Source of the DNA: Alphaproteobacteria bacterium
GTDB lineage: Bacteria; Pseudomonadota; Alphaproteobacteria; Caulobacterales; Maricaulaceae
Length of the DNA: 64,000 nucleotides
Direction of reading: 5' to 3'
Assembly (NCBI GenBank): GCA_024278855.1
Contig: JAJRSJ010000027.1
Span: forward strand, 62,001-126,000
In this document: one piece after another, positions 24,959 to 59,262 of the stretch
Layout of the letters: each line of letters starts with the position of its first letter
Numbering within the stretch: position 1 is the stretch's first letter
Made by a program: the position numbers and the translations under genes
The notes under the pieces: generated by a model
What the model was told of the DNA's origin: nothing
What the model saw: the letters and a program-made list of their open reading frames with translations, nothing else
The model's database searches: none

Positions 24959-25168
24959 TTACTCGCCTCTAGTGGCCGGATTAGCCATATTTTTCCTCAA
25001 ATCTAAAAATGCCCGAATCACCGGGAGATTATGGGGTAATATAGGGGAGGTTTGGGGAAAATGCGAGCGAAATACGGGGGTGTTTGTATAGTTGAACCAT
25101 GACACTTGATTGCTCACTTGTCAGAGCAGGTTACTGATGTATACTTGCATAAGAGCAGGGAGTACATC

Positions 25169-26773
25169 ATGCCACAAAGAAATTTTGCCAAGCTACTCGT
25201 ATTAATATTCTCACTCTTTTCACTTGCGGCATGCTCACCTAAAACCACCGATGCAAAACGCAATAAAGATGCGCCGCTTAATGGCGATAAAGTTATCACG
25301 CTCCTTTTTACAAATGATGTGGAAAGCGCCTATGATCCCATACCGGCTTTCTGGCTTGATGACGTAGAGAGCATTGGCGGCATTGCCGAACTAACGACGC
25401 TTATCAACGACATACGTCACAAGCAGCCGAATGTATTTTTGTTTGATGCAGGCGATATATTTACGGGTTCCTTGGCCAAAGAAACCAACGGCGCACTGGC
25501 TTTTGACCTGATGACACTCATGGATTATGACGCTATGGCGATCGGCAATCATGAGTTTGAGTATGGTGCCGATGTGCTTGCCTGGCAGAAAAATCGTGCG
25601 CCGTTTCCCGTGCTTGCCGCCAACATATTCTACCAAGGCACAGACCATCCCTTTGCCCAAGCTTATACTATTGTTGAGCGCAATGGTGTGCGCATAGGGG
25701 TCGTGGGGATTATGGGGCGTGATGCCGTGTCTGCGATTATACCTTCTTTTGTTGCTGCGGTTGATGTGCGAGATGAAGCTGTCACAGCCCAACGCGCTAT
25801 TGATGCGATACGCGGCGAAGTAGACGTAGTCGTATTACTAACTCACCAAGGGAAAACCGCACCAATGCAGACCGATGCAGAAAGTGACCCACGCTTACAG
25901 CGCGACATTGATGCTGATATTACATTGTCAGGCACTTTACACGGCGTAGACGTTCATTTTGCAGGTCACGCAGATGCAGGAACGCCCGAGCCATTGGTCC
26001 ATCCCAAAACCGGCACCTTGATCATGCAAACATATGGGCAGGCGACCCATTTAGGGTTTCTACAACTCACACTCGACGGCACAACGGGCAAAGTAAAGAG
26101 CCATACGGGTAAGCTTATCCCTGTAAACGCGCAGCAATATAAACCCAACAAACTGATTGCAGCACGGCTCACCGAATATCGGAAACGCTTCCCCGAACTT
26201 TATAACACGGTTGGGTATTCAAGCAAATATATGAGTAGACGTTATATTGAAGAATCAGATGTAGGCAATCTATTTGCCGACATCATGCGTGCGACTGCCG
26301 GCACAGATATTGCACTTCTGCATGCGGGTAGCTTGCGCAAAGATATCCCCGAGGGGGCCGTCAACCGGGCTGACCTTCTTGACGTTTATCCGTTCATTGA
26401 CACTGTAGATACGTTGCAAATAACTGGCGCTCAATTACGCGAGGTGCTTGAACAATCCTTAACATTGGAAAGAGGCTTGTTACAAATTTCAGGATTTGAA
26501 ATTAGCTATGACTTATCCAAGCCGGAATTTGCTCGCCTTGTCTCGATGACACGCGGCGGTGTCAACATTCGTCCCTCTGATACTCTCTCCGTTGCCGCCC
26601 CCAGTTTTCTCGCCGAAGGGGGAGATTTGTACACAACATTTTCCGGCATCAAAGCTGAAGCTGATTTTGGGTTGGTTTCTACTGTTATCATTGACTATTT
26701 TGCCAAATCCGGCACGAGCAACCGCGTGCCGCCGCCGCCTAAAGGACGACAAACAGAAATAAAGCATAATTAA
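25169..26773 (+). CDS. Bifunctional metallophosphatase/5'-nucleotidase lipoprotein
   Basis: LLFTNDVES, FDAGDIFTGS, AIGNHEFEYG metallophosphatase motifs; C-terminal 5'-nucleotidase domain; lipobox LAACS. Confidence 0.88.
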   Translation: MPQRNFAKLLVLIFSLFSLAACSPKTTDAKRNKDAPLNGDKVITLLFTNDVESAYDPIPAFWLDDVESIGGIAELTTLINDIRHKQPNVFLFDAGDIFTGSLAKETNGALAFDLMTLMDYDAMAIGNHEFEYGADVLAWQKNRAPFPVLAANIFYQGTDHPFAQAYTIVERNGVRIGVVGIMGRDAVSAIIPSFVAAVDVRDEAVTAQRAIDAIRGEVDVVVLLTHQGKTAPMQTDAESDPRLQRDIDADITLSGTLHGVDVHFAGHADAGTPEPLVHPKTGTLIMQTYGQATHLGFLQLTLDGTTGKVKSHTGKLIPVNAQQYKPNKLIAARLTEYRKRFPELYNTVGYSSKYMSRRYIEESDVGNLFADIMRATAGTDIALLHAGSLRKDIPEGAVNRADLLDVYPFIDTVDTLQITGAQLREVLEQSLTLERGLLQISGFEISYDLSKPEFARLVSMTRGGVNIRPSDTLSVAAPSFLAEGGDLYTTFSGIKAEADFGLVSTVIIDYFAKSGTSNRVPPPPKGRQTEIKHN

Positions 26774-27028
26774 CCCCCCGCTAACCACCCTACCGAGAAT
26801 TAGCCCCTGCCCCAAAATTGCCTTATTTGCGCCCTGTTTGTGACAAGATGGGGGGTCATACAGATTTTACTGAACGGAAAGCACAAACAAGACACGGTTT
26901 TTCAGCCCCCCAGCCCCAACCCGTAGCATCTGGGTTTTGGCTTTCCGTTCATTTTCTACCTTATAAGGCCCACCTTATAAGCCCACATATTCAAACCCTG
27001 CCGCTCCCATCGGCAGGGTTTTTGATTT
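26769..27028 (+). repeat. Copy A of a duplicated, structured intergenic element (candidate sRNA)
   Basis: High identity to 27951-28185; contains gaacggaaagc...gctttccgttc inverted repeat and a 3' intrinsic terminator. Confidence 0.8.
26993..27023 (+). terminator. Intrinsic terminator at 3' end of repeat copy A
   Basis: aaaccctgccg-ctcccat-cggcagggttttt. Confidence 0.8.
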
Positions 27029-27180
27029 ATTGCGCCCGATTAGGTAAATTTTCTCAAAAATAGCATCAAACATGGTTTCTTGCTTGTTATGCCAAAAAAT
27101 GTTACGGAGCCTCCCATAAATTAGTTTTCAGGGCAAAGACTAAATAATTAGCAACCCTGATATTATAAAGGGGATTAGCT

Positions 27181-27905
27181 ATGAAGAGAACTTTGATTTT
27201 ATTATATGGGGTCACATCCTATTTTTGGGCGTTATTGGGTTGGCGTGTATTATTTTGGCGTTGGCGGGCCTTATCCCTTACGGGTTTTGGCTAGGCGGGA
27301 AAGGCGGCGGCGTAAATCCGGTCTTATGGAATAGCGCATGGGTTATCATTTGGGGTGTTATACACACTGGTATGGCCAGGCCTGGCTTTAAGCGGGCTTT
27401 GACAAAAACCATCCCCGAAGCCGCTGAACGCTCTACCTATATTCTAATGGCAGGTCTAACAAGCGTCGCACTGATAGCCTTTTGGCAAGCGGTCCCAGGT
27501 CAGATTTGGCACATTGAAACGGCTAGCATAGCCTATGTGTTATGGGCCATATTCATTTTCGGTTGGGTTTTTCTGTTGGGCGCAACATTTGCTATCAATC
27601 ATTTTGATCTATTTGGATTAAGGCAAGTATTTCTCAATTTTAAAAACAGCCCGCGCCCACCTCTTAAATTCACAAAACGCGCCATGTATAAATATATTCG
27701 CCATCCCATCCAGACAGGTGTGCTGATAGGTATTTGGGCCACACCGTCTATGACAAACACGCAAATAGTTTTGAGCATAGGTTTCACCATCTATATTTTT
27801 GTCGGTTTGTGGTTTGAAGAGCGCGATCTTGTTGCCGAGCACGGTGAGAGTTATTTGCAATACCGTAAGGAGACGGGGAAAGTTCTGCCAAAATTCGGCG
27901 GATAG
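27181..27905 (+). pseudogene. MddA-like methanethiol S-methyltransferase / isoprenylcysteine-methyltransferase-like membrane protein, frameshifted near 27222-27226
   Basis: MKRTLILLYGVTSYF (frame 1) then GVIGLACIILALAGLIPYG... (frame 0); adding one T to the T5 run joins them; C-terminal AMYKYIRHPIQTGVLIGIWATPSM...EERDLVAEHGESYLQYR. Confidence 0.7.
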
Positions 27906-27950
27906 CTATCAGGCGCAGGCTATTTTTAGGGGCTATATGAAAGCTCTAAA

Positions 27951-28185
27951 ATTAACCCCCCGTCAACCACCTTACCAAGAATTAACCCTTGCCTTAATAT
28001 TGCCTTATTTGCGCCCTGTTTGTGACAAGATGGGGGTTCATACAGATTTTACTGAACGGAAGGCGCAAACAAGACACGGTTTTTTCAGCCCCCCAGCCCC
28101 CGGGTTTTGGCCTTCCGTTCTTTTCCCACGTTAAAAGACCCACGTATTCAAACCCTGCCGTTCCCATCGGCAGGGTTTTTGATTT
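27951..28185 (+). repeat. Copy B of the duplicated structured intergenic element (candidate sRNA)
   Basis: Aligned with 26769-27028; gaacggaaggc...gccttccgttc hairpin shows a compensatory change relative to copy A. Confidence 0.8.
28150..28180 (+). terminator. Intrinsic terminator at 3' end of repeat copy B
   Basis: aaaccctgccg-ttcccat-cggcagggttttt. Confidence 0.8.
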
Positions 28186-28222: not shown

Positions 28223-29002
28223 CTACCCAGGTACATAATTAGCGGCGCTCAAGATAGGGCCGCCAGGGCCGTCTTGCACCAAAATTACCAGAGCTTCGCC
28301 GGGCTTTAAAGATTTAATGTGCGTGCTAAAGCTTTCGCGTCCACCGATCTTGCCAATCTCTTTGCAAGACTGCACCACATTGGCCAGCTTAATCGTGCGA
28401 CCGGAATTTTCGCCGCGCTTTACCGGTACGCTTTGGATACCGGGCCGATAGCGCACCGCCATGACATTCCAGGTTTTTTGCAGTGCGCCCGTGGGGGTGA
28501 TTTGCACATCTATACCGTCTGCGCTGCTGCCAATACGGATATCGGGAATATTATCCAGTTTTAAGCTCCGTACTTTTTTACGCGAAAATTTTGTGGCATG
28601 TATCTCGCCGTTGACCACCATTTGCGGTGTATAGACCTTGCCGCCAAATTGTTTGCCGTATGTGCGCTGATGCTTGGAAAACTCCGGCTTGCCAAATGTA
28701 TCCTTCCAGCCCTTATAATCCCAATAATCAACACTATAGGACAAGGTGAGCAGTTCTGGCCCACCGTCCAGTTCGCGGACAAATGTATTGGCGGCCGGGC
28801 AAGATGAACAGCCTTGGGAGGTAAATAATTCTAGCACGGTGACGGGTGTGGAGACATTACGGGACCCCGGCGAGCTAGCCCCTGCAAACACCGACGCAAG
28901 CACCGACACAATTGTCACCAATAACACGGCCAAGAATACAATGGTCAGCTTCATAAATCTCATAAGCTTGTTTATCGCGGTGCGCCCCCAAACACCAGAC
29001 AC
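28223..29002 (-). CDS. DUF1223 (thioredoxin-like) secreted protein
   Basis: VTVLELFTSQGCSSCPAANTFVREL...YWDYKGWKDTFGKPEFSKHQRTYGKQFGGKVYTPQMVVNG. Confidence 0.85.
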   Translation of the reverse strand: MSGVWGRTAINKLMRFMKLTIVFLAVLLVTIVSVLASVFAGASSPGSRNVSTPVTVLELFTSQGCSSCPAANTFVRELDGGPELLTLSYSVDYWDYKGWKDTFGKPEFSKHQRTYGKQFGGKVYTPQMVVNGEIHATKFSRKKVRSLKLDNIPDIRIGSSADGIDVQITPTGALQKTWNVMAVRYRPGIQSVPVKRGENSGRTIKLANVVQSCKEIGKIGGRESFSTHIKSLKPGEALVILVQDGPGGPILSAANYVPG

Positions 29003-56726: not shown

Positions 56727-57110
56727 GTACAGGCCTTAAGCCTAGCACATGATTGGTATTTTTGGAATAATTGTTTAAATCGGCCATAAGCACAGATTAC
56801 CAGAACATGTTTCGTTTTTTATCACCTTTGGGTTGTCGAGCGCGCAAATATTTTACCAAAAATGTCGCAAATCACCTTATGTTCTACACAGATGAAAACT
56901 GGAATCATTATAGGTTGAAGTGCGGACTTGTTTTTTGGTTTTTTTGCAAAAAAAATTATAAAATAATTGAAAAAAAATATTGCAACCAAAGCTTTGGAAT
57001 ATCAGGAAGTTTTGGCGATTAACCCGGCGTTAACCACGGAGCTTAACGGGTTATTAACAATAAAAATACCAAACTACACACACAAGGTATTGACGGCGTG
57101 GTGGAAATGG

Positions 57111-57126: not shown

Positions 57127-57279
57127 GAAGACCGTTTGGGTTTCCAAAACTTGATGAATTGACAGCGGATATGGGTACATATCCGAAGGGGATATTTGTC
57201 ACTGTAAATACCAGTTTAATCACGCGGCGCTTTGGGAAAAGGGGCCACAAAACAGATAACGCTACAAAATGGGGGAATT

Positions 57280-59262
57280 ATGTCAGAAGCACCGACAACA
57301 GGAGCCGCGACCACACATCAAGCCGCACATCAAATTTCTGATGATAGCAGCCATATAACAACGCCTGTTTCATCTGATTATAGCAAGTCCCCTAAAGTTA
57401 CGAACACAAGAGGCGCTAAGCACACACCAACTTCGCTTAAACTGGTAAAGCGGGTTAAAATCAACCATGAGCGCGACGAACTTTTGACCGATTTTGGCAA
57501 AACCACCTTGGTTGACCGTTACCTCCTGCCTGAAGAAAGCTACCAGGACATGTTTGTCCGCGTCGCCGAGCATTACGCCGACAAGGACGACCCGGCCCAC
57601 GCCCAGCGCCTGTATGATTATATGTCCAAACTTTGGTTCATGCCTGCCACACCTATTCTCTCAAACGGCGGCGCCAAGCGCGGCCTGCCCATATCGTGCT
57701 TCTTAAATGCCGTAGACGATAGCCTTGATAGCATTGTTGAGGTATGGAACGAAAATGTCTGGCTCGCCTCCAACGGCGGCGGTATTGGTACCTATTGGGG
57801 CAATGTCCGCTCTATCGGCGAAAAAATTGGTCGGGCCGGTAAAACATCCGGCATTATTCCGTTTATCCGGGTCATGGACAGTTTGACTTTAGCCATTTCC
57901 CAAGGCTCATTACGCCGGGGTTCTGCCGCTGTCTATCTGGACATTCACCACCCAGAAATTGAGGAGTTTCTCGAAATCCGTAAACCGAGCGGCGACTTTA
58001 ACCGCAAAAGTCTGAACCTGCATCACGGCCTCAACATCACCGACGAATTTATGGAAGCGGTACGGGACGGGGATGAATTCGCCCTGCGTTCGCCCAAGAC
58101 AAAAGAAATTATCAAGAAGATCGACGCCCGTAAATTATGGCAAAAAATCCTGGAAATGCGCTTGCAGACCGGCGAGCCATATATGGTGTTTTCAGATACG
58201 GTCAACAAAGCGTTGGCGACGCACCAAAAGGAACAAGGCCTACGCGTACAGCAATCCAATTTGTGTGCCGAGATTATGCTGGCCACGGGTAAAGACAAAT
58301 CCGGGCGGCAACGTACCGCCGTGTGTTGTTTGTCATCGGTCAATGCCGAATTGTTTGAAGAGTGGAAAGACGACGAAAACTTCATCGAAGACATATTGCG
58401 GTTTTTGGATAATGTCTTGCAGGACTATATCGACAATGCGCCCGAAAAAATGGCGGACGCGGTTTATTCGGCCCACAGAGAACGTTCCGTCGGGCTTGGC
58501 CTGATGGGTTTTCATTCTATGCTCCAAGCCAAAGGTGTACCGTTTGAAAGCGGTATGGCCAAGGCCATGAACAAACGCTTGTTCAAACATATTCGCACGC
58601 AAGCCGATGCAGTCAGTGTCAAATTAGCCGTCGAGCGCGGGGCTTGCCCGGACGCGGCAGATGCAGGCATGATGGCAAGGTTCTCCCATAAACTGGCCGT
58701 GGCCCCGACCGCGTCTATTTCGATCATATGCGGCGGTACATCGGCGGGTATTGAGCCGATTCCGGCCAATATCTACACCCACAAAACCCTGTCAGGTTCG
58801 TTTACGGTGCGCAACAAACATCTGGAAGCCGTGCTTGAGCAAAAAAATGCCAACACGCCGGAGGTCTGGAACTCTATGTTGGAGCAAGAAGGCTCCGTTG
58901 CTCATTTGGACGAATTATCCGAGGACGAAAAGGCAGTATTTCGCACCGCATTTGAGCTTGACCAGCGCTGGATTATTGAACTGGCCGCCGACCGCGCGCC
59001 GCTGATTTGCCAAGCCCAGAGCCTGAATATTTTCATCCCCGGCGACGTGAATAAATGGGATCTGCACATGCTGCACTGGAATGCTTGGGAAAAAGGCATT
59101 AAATCTTTGTATTATTGCCGCTCAAAATCCGTGCAGCGTGCCGCATTTGCGGGCAGTGGGGACAAGCCAACAAATGACCAGGCGGGCGAGGTGGACGACA
59201 TGCAAGCCGCTATGCAAGCCGCCGCCCCGACGGATTACGACGAATGTCTGGCGTGCCAGTAG
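57280..59262 (+). CDS. nrdA: Ribonucleoside-diphosphate reductase subunit alpha
   Basis: FMPATPILSNGGAKRGLPISCFLNAVDDSL, SNGGGIGTYWGNVRSIGE, C-terminal ECLACQ; start at MSEAPTTGAATTH. Confidence 0.94.
   Translation: MSEAPTTGAATTHQAAHQISDDSSHITTPVSSDYSKSPKVTNTRGAKHTPTSLKLVKRVKINHERDELLTDFGKTTLVDRYLLPEESYQDMFVRVAEHYADKDDPAHAQRLYDYMSKLWFMPATPILSNGGAKRGLPISCFLNAVDDSLDSIVEVWNENVWLASNGGGIGTYWGNVRSIGEKIGRAGKTSGIIPFIRVMDSLTLAISQGSLRRGSAAVYLDIHHPEIEEFLEIRKPSGDFNRKSLNLHHGLNITDEFMEAVRDGDEFALRSPKTKEIIKKIDARKLWQKILEMRLQTGEPYMVFSDTVNKALATHQKEQGLRVQQSNLCAEIMLATGKDKSGRQRTAVCCLSSVNAELFEEWKDDENFIEDILRFLDNVLQDYIDNAPEKMADAVYSAHRERSVGLGLMGFHSMLQAKGVPFESGMAKAMNKRLFKHIRTQADAVSVKLAVERGACPDAADAGMMARFSHKLAVAPTASISIICGGTSAGIEPIPANIYTHKTLSGSFTVRNKHLEAVLEQKNANTPEVWNSMLEQEGSVAHLDELSEDEKAVFRTAFELDQRWIIELAADRAPLICQAQSLNIFIPGDVNKWDLHMLHWNAWEKGIKSLYYCRSKSVQRAAFAGSGDKPTNDQAGEVDDMQAAMQAAAPTDYDECLACQ

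Follow-up and report, generated by a model that had tools for sequence, protein, structure and literature searches.

Three described small RNAs (sRNAs) act on mRNAs through a C-rich loop, as established by mutation: the loops of CcnA (PMC8959179) and GsrN (PMC5869019) act on G-rich mRNA leaders, and that of PmaR (PMC6234868) on its mRNA targets. GsrN and PmaR resemble the element described here in this C-rich loop, which in both pairs with mRNAs; they are set apart from it by description, GsrN being driven by the general-stress sigma factor and PmaR being limited to Agrobacterium and close kin. A further C-rich sRNA of Alphaproteobacteria, ar14/NfeR1 (RF02344), overlaps Caulobacter CC3664 weakly (22 bits, far under its gathering score of 58.8) and has no match in the DNA analysed. 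EcpR1 (PMC4414408) was considered and ruled out by its different loop (UCCGCCGCAUCU) and locus (divK-pleD/rpmG).

The closest described relatives are CC3664 (RF01530), a hairpin with a GAACAGCCCCCCCAGCCCC-type loop that begins at its stem and ends at a terminator, and BjrC174 of Bradyrhizobiaceae (RF02355), an abundant sRNA whose strong promoter fits no mapped consensus (PMC4842269), in which the loop CUCAGCCCCCAGCCCCCCG lies inside a hairpin. No published function for either was found in the literature searched; in a study of sponge RNAs covering CrfA and SisA-D (PMC12559287), we found no mention of a CC3664-type RNA.

The duplicated locus

The DNA analysed (the window) is a stretch of 64,000 nucleotides from a Caulobacterales-type genome whose genus lies near Hellea; the closest named match to its gyrB, at 80% identity, comes from a Hellea metagenome-assembled genome. 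The initial annotation described duplicated non-coding blocks around an MddA-like gene, and alignment bears this out: the blocks at 26769-27028 and 27951-28185 are 82% identical over 262 nt (E = 3e-72), and the 2.72-Mb genome contains no other copy. A plasmid collection searched with the element gave no match. The gene order is gyrB (divergent), 5'-nucleotidase, copy A, mddA-like, copy B, DUF1223 (convergent), and lolA, with the following features.

25106-26773 (+): UshA-like 5'-nucleotidase gene, between gyrB and copy A (side observation)
26770-26805 (+): copy A, degenerate CtrA-like TTAA half-sites (TTAACC, CTAACC, TTAGCC), from the sequence
26818-26834 (+): copy A, upstream box TTGCCTTATTTGCGCCC, conserved before the RNA core in homologs
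26857-26863 (+): copy A, -10-like CATACAG, in a conserved CATAnA alignment column
26869-27024 (+): copy A, predicted sRNA of ~155 nt, from the fold and models, with the extent of Rfam CC3664
26872-26882 (+): copy A, main stem 5' arm, pairing with 26940-26950
26903-26917 (+): copy A, C-rich apical loop CAGCCCCCCAGCCCC
26940-26950 (+): copy A, main stem 3' arm
26993-27024 (+): copy A, intrinsic terminator with UCCCA in its loop (terminator scan)
27183-27905 (+): MddA-like methyltransferase gene between the copies (NCBIfam MddA and Pfam PEMT)
27952-27987 (+): copy B, degenerate CtrA-like half-sites (TTAACC, TCAACC, TTAACC), from the sequence
28000-28016 (+): copy B, conserved upstream box TTGCCTTATTTGCGCCC
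28039-28045 (+): copy B, -10-like CATACAG, in a conserved alignment column
28051-28181 (+): copy B, predicted sRNA of ~130 nt, at the ancestral site and convergent with DUF1223
28054-28064 (+): copy B, main stem 5' arm, pairing with 28110-28120
28086-28100 (+): copy B, C-rich apical loop CAGCCCCCCAGCCCC
28110-28120 (+): copy B, main stem 3' arm
28150-28181 (+): copy B, intrinsic terminator (terminator scan)
28223-29002 (-): DUF1223 gene (Pfam PF06764), conserved convergent neighbor 3' of the element

The MddA-like gene scores 198 bits against NCBIfam MddA, under the cut-off of 270, and reaches the cut-off for Pfam PEMT; it was duplicated or inserted together with the element in the window's sub-lineage. 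Among the loci of the genus examined, the UshA-like gene lies between gyrB and the element only in the window and in one relative (G006), and its absence from the others suggests a recent insertion. Elsewhere in the window, a HigA-family antitoxin gene (TIGR02607; 31814-32426, minus strand) is preceded by a 92-amino-acid open reading frame at the position of a HigB toxin, for which no NCBIfam family match was found.

Within each block a promoter region precedes a hairpin, whose loop is CAGCCCCCCAGCCCC, and an intrinsic terminator follows. In both copies the main stem pairs over 11 bp and is accompanied by an inner stem, the loop, a linker, and the terminator hairpin; folding is more stable than in dinucleotide shuffles (z = -3.6 for copy A and -3.3 for copy B). 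As first noted, the stem arms (GAACGGAAAGC/GCTTTCCGTTC in copy A, GAACGGAAGGC/GCCTTCCGTTC in copy B) differ by a compensatory A-T to G-C change, and copy A has extra apical sequence, which amounts to 13 nt; a second small insertion precedes the terminator. The terminators, also correctly recognized from the start, are 11-bp hairpins followed by a T-run, with UCCCA(C) in the loop. Discrete transcripts of roughly 150-200 nt had been proposed. Terminated sRNA genes are retained here, with shorter predicted products (~155 and ~130 nt), since each block opens with ~100 nt that look like a promoter rather than RNA, carrying in same-genus comparison TTAACC half-sites, the box TTGCCTTATTTGCGCCC, and a -10-like CATAnA; a scan found no sigma-70 consensus promoter at the -10-like site of copy A. 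The RNA 5' end most likely lies at the main stem (~26869 in copy A and ~28051 in copy B), in agreement with the Rfam model of CC3664, which begins at the same stem and ends at the terminator.

Stem, loop, and upstream sequences

Covariation supports the stem. When 16 sequences were aligned by MAFFT with no fitting to structure, two-sided change occurred in 8 of 20 pairs (3.0 +/- 1.3 in shuffles); unaided, RNAalifold also predicts the 11-bp stem, and 6 of its 11 pairs covary. The covariance-model search recommended by the initial annotation recovered homologs, and when 29 or 56 rows are fitted to a model, each of the 20 modeled pairs shows compensatory change, with covariation far exceeding shuffled and slid controls; two-sided changes number 273 in the 56 class-wide rows and 78 +/- 10 in their shuffles. 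Because fitting an alignment to a model favors structure, the MAFFT comparison is the less biased test. Two rows of alignment A3 and one of A5 are reverse-strand; A4, with 29 sense-strand rows, gave the same result.

The loop core GCCCCCC-C(0-2)-AGCC is kept in 49 of the 56 rows despite the divergence of the stem. The pattern GGTTTTN(0-6)CAGCCCCCCAGCCCC has 16 occurrences, spread over 12 of the 348 genomes of the order, every one an element site, and its reversed control has no occurrence among the order genomes listed. The C-rich loop is thus nearly unchanged across much of the Alphaproteobacteria on a stem that has changed completely.

Of 54 homologs, 46 have a box close to TTGCCTTATTTnnGCC (three or fewer mismatches) 34-64 nt upstream of the core, compared with ~9% of shuffled upstream regions. 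This class-wide box (26818-26834 and 28000-28016 in the window) matched no recognized promoter or regulator motif; in many species it takes the form of an 11-bp-spaced repeat, TGCCnnAnnnTTGCC. By analogy, the non-consensus strong promoter of BjrC174 is compatible with this finding.

The box also bears on whether the element is transcribed on its own. It is improbable that the blocks merely repeat a shared 3' end or terminator, or that they give an sRNA which lacks its own promoter and is cut out of the 5'-nucleotidase and mddA 3' UTRs. The first nucleotides of copy A do fall in the 5'-nucleotidase stop codon, and a terminator scan found no further terminator between mddA and copy B, as such an origin would have it; however, the upstream box is held at a near-fixed distance where the upstream gene (DUF2794 or gyrB) is divergent and there is no 3' UTR, and stem covariation together with an invariant loop surpasses what a terminator needs.

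Paired TTAA-N6/7-TTAA boxes, resembling CtrA sites, occur in most same-genus relatives and in a few other members of the family; the exact paired box is degenerate in both window copies and is not class-wide. Genome-wide, TTAA-N7-TTAAC is not enriched over its control (26 versus 46); its matches in the window genome include sites before gcrA, a flagellar-like gene, and nrdA. The box of gcrA (locus L194, 1501-1542, genome C36) lies about 25 nt before the ATG, and this gene has a GAGGGG ribosome-binding site. Upstream of nrdA (ribonucleotide reductase alpha; 57232-59262, plus strand) are two tandem CtrA-like boxes, TTAACCCGGCGTTAAC and TTAACGGGTTATTAAC (57019-57058), and GGGGG stands before its likely start. 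CtrA control of the element in this genus is plausible from these sites; we treat it as conjecture, because the window boxes are degenerate and the boxes lack genome-wide enrichment.

Synteny and relationship to CC3664 and BjrC174

A model built for the genus (R1) found the element in 17 of 348 genomes of the order, and a covariance model built from relatives (R2) in 61 of 137 genomes of the family, representing 17 of 19 genera, as well as in several other alphaproteobacterial families. Among 54 elements examined, DUF2794 is divergent and upstream in 36 and DUF1223 convergent and downstream in 21, as it is for copy B; neither gene is ever found in another order or orientation. In the window's genus gyrB replaces DUF2794 as the upstream neighbor and DUF1223 stays. 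The window locus is tied to the ancestral site by genomes in which both genes flank the element (for example, G014, G030, G345, and Caulobacteraceae L301 and L304) and by one (G018) in which it lies beside DUF1223, about 4.6 kb away from DUF2794. The DUF2794 locus of the window genome itself, elsewhere in the genome (L311), yielded no convincing element.

Within the genus there are one to three copies per genome. Some are decaying: one is reduced to its promoter (G006 copy 1), and two have damaged loops or stems (G006 copy 2 and G002 copy 1). An apparent third copy in G011 is probably one copy divided by a contig end. Stem and loop are intact in both window copies.

It is quite unlikely that the element is a cis-acting leader or attenuator of the downstream gene (mddA for copy A). 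Copy A lies ~160 nt 5' of mddA, and its hairpin and terminator are laid out as in an attenuator; yet the gene 3' of copy B and of 21 homologs, DUF1223, is on the opposite strand, the genes downstream vary between lineages, and it is the loop that is conserved, with no sign of an alternative antiterminator fold.

The element had been reported as matching no recognized kind of RNA; it is in fact homologous to CC3664 and BjrC174, though their Rfam models miss the window copies. The Rfam check thus has a divided outcome: relatives match RF01530 or RF02355, and the window copies fall below every threshold. At gathering scores nothing in the window is above threshold, including RF01530 (60 bits), which also gave no match at E<=1 over 15 kb or at E<=10 over copy B. 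The best weak Rfam match in the window, FsrA, depends on the terminator only and was rejected as an identity.

RF01530 scores 64-106 bits at the syntenic Caulobacteraceae site, and R2, built without any Caulobacter sequence, lands on the RF01530 positions there (L300, L301, L304, L307, and L308). Second, tandem CC3664-like RNA genes occur in Caulobacteraceae (L307 2222-2372, L301 905-1033, and L308 894-1043), scoring below or just above the Rfam threshold. Because R2 meets the RF01530 positions at the same site and tandem copies are present there, the window element is read from sequence as an ortholog of CC3664, on a strongly diverged branch that was duplicated independently. It shares with CC3664 a long hairpin at the RNA 5' end with the loop CAGCCCCCC(C)AGCCCC, a locus logic of divergent DUF2794 and convergent DUF1223 (the latter next to copy B as in L301 and L304), tandem copies, and descent traced by a model blind to CC3664. 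In contrast to CC3664, its stem sequence is fully different, and both copies lie near gyrB, which stands in DUF2794's place and is joined by CtrA-like boxes; by Rfam's own score the element falls outside RF01530.

Intermediate homologs linked to DUF2794 match both RF02355 and RF01530 below threshold, on the right strand and at the right position. For RF02355 (gathering 45 bits) these matches (L283, L286, and L291, correct strand) lie in relatives only, the best at 31.9 bits; every match is below gathering, the Rfam model takes in upstream sequence, and the window copies are unmatched. BjrC174 very probably belongs to the same superfamily as the window element and CC3664. The window copies are real, duplicated, structured sRNA genes, a new branch of a known kind, a reading to which covariation, terminators, synteny, and homology with expressed RNAs all lend good support.

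Orthology with CcnA, a cell-cycle RNA that depends on CtrA and is encoded at the replication origin of Caulobacter, is very unlikely. The two have in common a proposed logic only, a CtrA-linked promoter and an exposed C-run complementary to GGGG, which CcnA binds in the ctrA and gcrA leaders (PMC8959179); CcnA, however, is 182 nt long and lies next to hemE, unlike the window element at gyrB/DUF1223, and R1 has no match near hemE in three Caulobacteraceae (G094, G118, and G161), the model matching CC3664 at a different syntenic locus instead. That the element is a repeat of the mobile or REP-like type is hardly credible: its copy number (two here, one to three in relatives) might suggest one, but the element keeps to a single locus throughout (save one extra copy in G010), synteny is fixed across families, and many dispersed copies with target duplications are absent. 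Equally remote is a small protein, whose frame (LPYLRPVCDKMG..HTDFTERKAQTRHGF) is open through both window copies but broken by stops and indels in relatives, in which stem and loop are kept as nucleotides.

Proposed action and significance

Taken as a whole, the locus is likely to hold tandem genes for a trans-acting sRNA orthologous to CC3664, acting by pairing with G-rich leaders and with a probable link to CtrA. Each gene, a CC3664 ortholog by synteny and a relative of BjrC174, would have its own promoter and terminator; expression is taken over from the known relatives. The predicted RNA is a long hairpin exposing the unpaired loop UUUUnCAGCCCCCCAGCCCC, with a single-stranded linker and a terminator hairpin containing UCCCA(C). 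Through its loop the RNA may bind G-rich segments of mRNA leaders and ribosome-binding sites, altering the translation or stability of the putative targets, and in this genus CtrA-type boxes would probably link expression to the cell cycle. By analogy with CcnA, GsrN, and PmaR, a pairing seed of this type should show what is seen here, an invariant C-rich loop on a freely varying stem. Structure, covariation, terminators, synteny, and homology are observed; for start sites, loop pairing, targets, and CtrA control we infer from these.

Candidate targets include gcrA, whose leaders in the genus have GGGG or GGGGG at the ribosome-binding site, and ctrA, which has CUGGAGGG and, in several species, CUGG(G)AGGG. 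These are leads rather than proof, because G-runs are common near starts: GGGG occurs in the ribosome-binding region of ~16% of 164 approximate gene starts in the window genome. Near-perfect complements of the loop are not enriched in the genome over the reversed pattern (91 versus 78, with three or fewer mismatches), the closest of those inspected sit within genes, and RNAduplex energies did not discriminate among candidate targets. A broader scheme, which we regard as speculative and rather doubtful, is that CC3664, BjrC174, and the window element are one ancient C-loop regulator of G-rich ribosome-binding sites with its own promoter element (TTGCCTTATTTnnGCC), captured by CtrA and duplicated in the Hellea-like lineage, where it would feed back on ctrA, gcrA, and other cell-cycle mRNAs.

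The analysis joins two Rfam families into one broadly conserved alphaproteobacterial sRNA and adds a branch that the Rfam models miss. It also names the near-invariant 15-nt loop and the upstream box as targets for mutation, and its function is directly testable because there are tractable relatives in Caulobacter and Bradyrhizobium.
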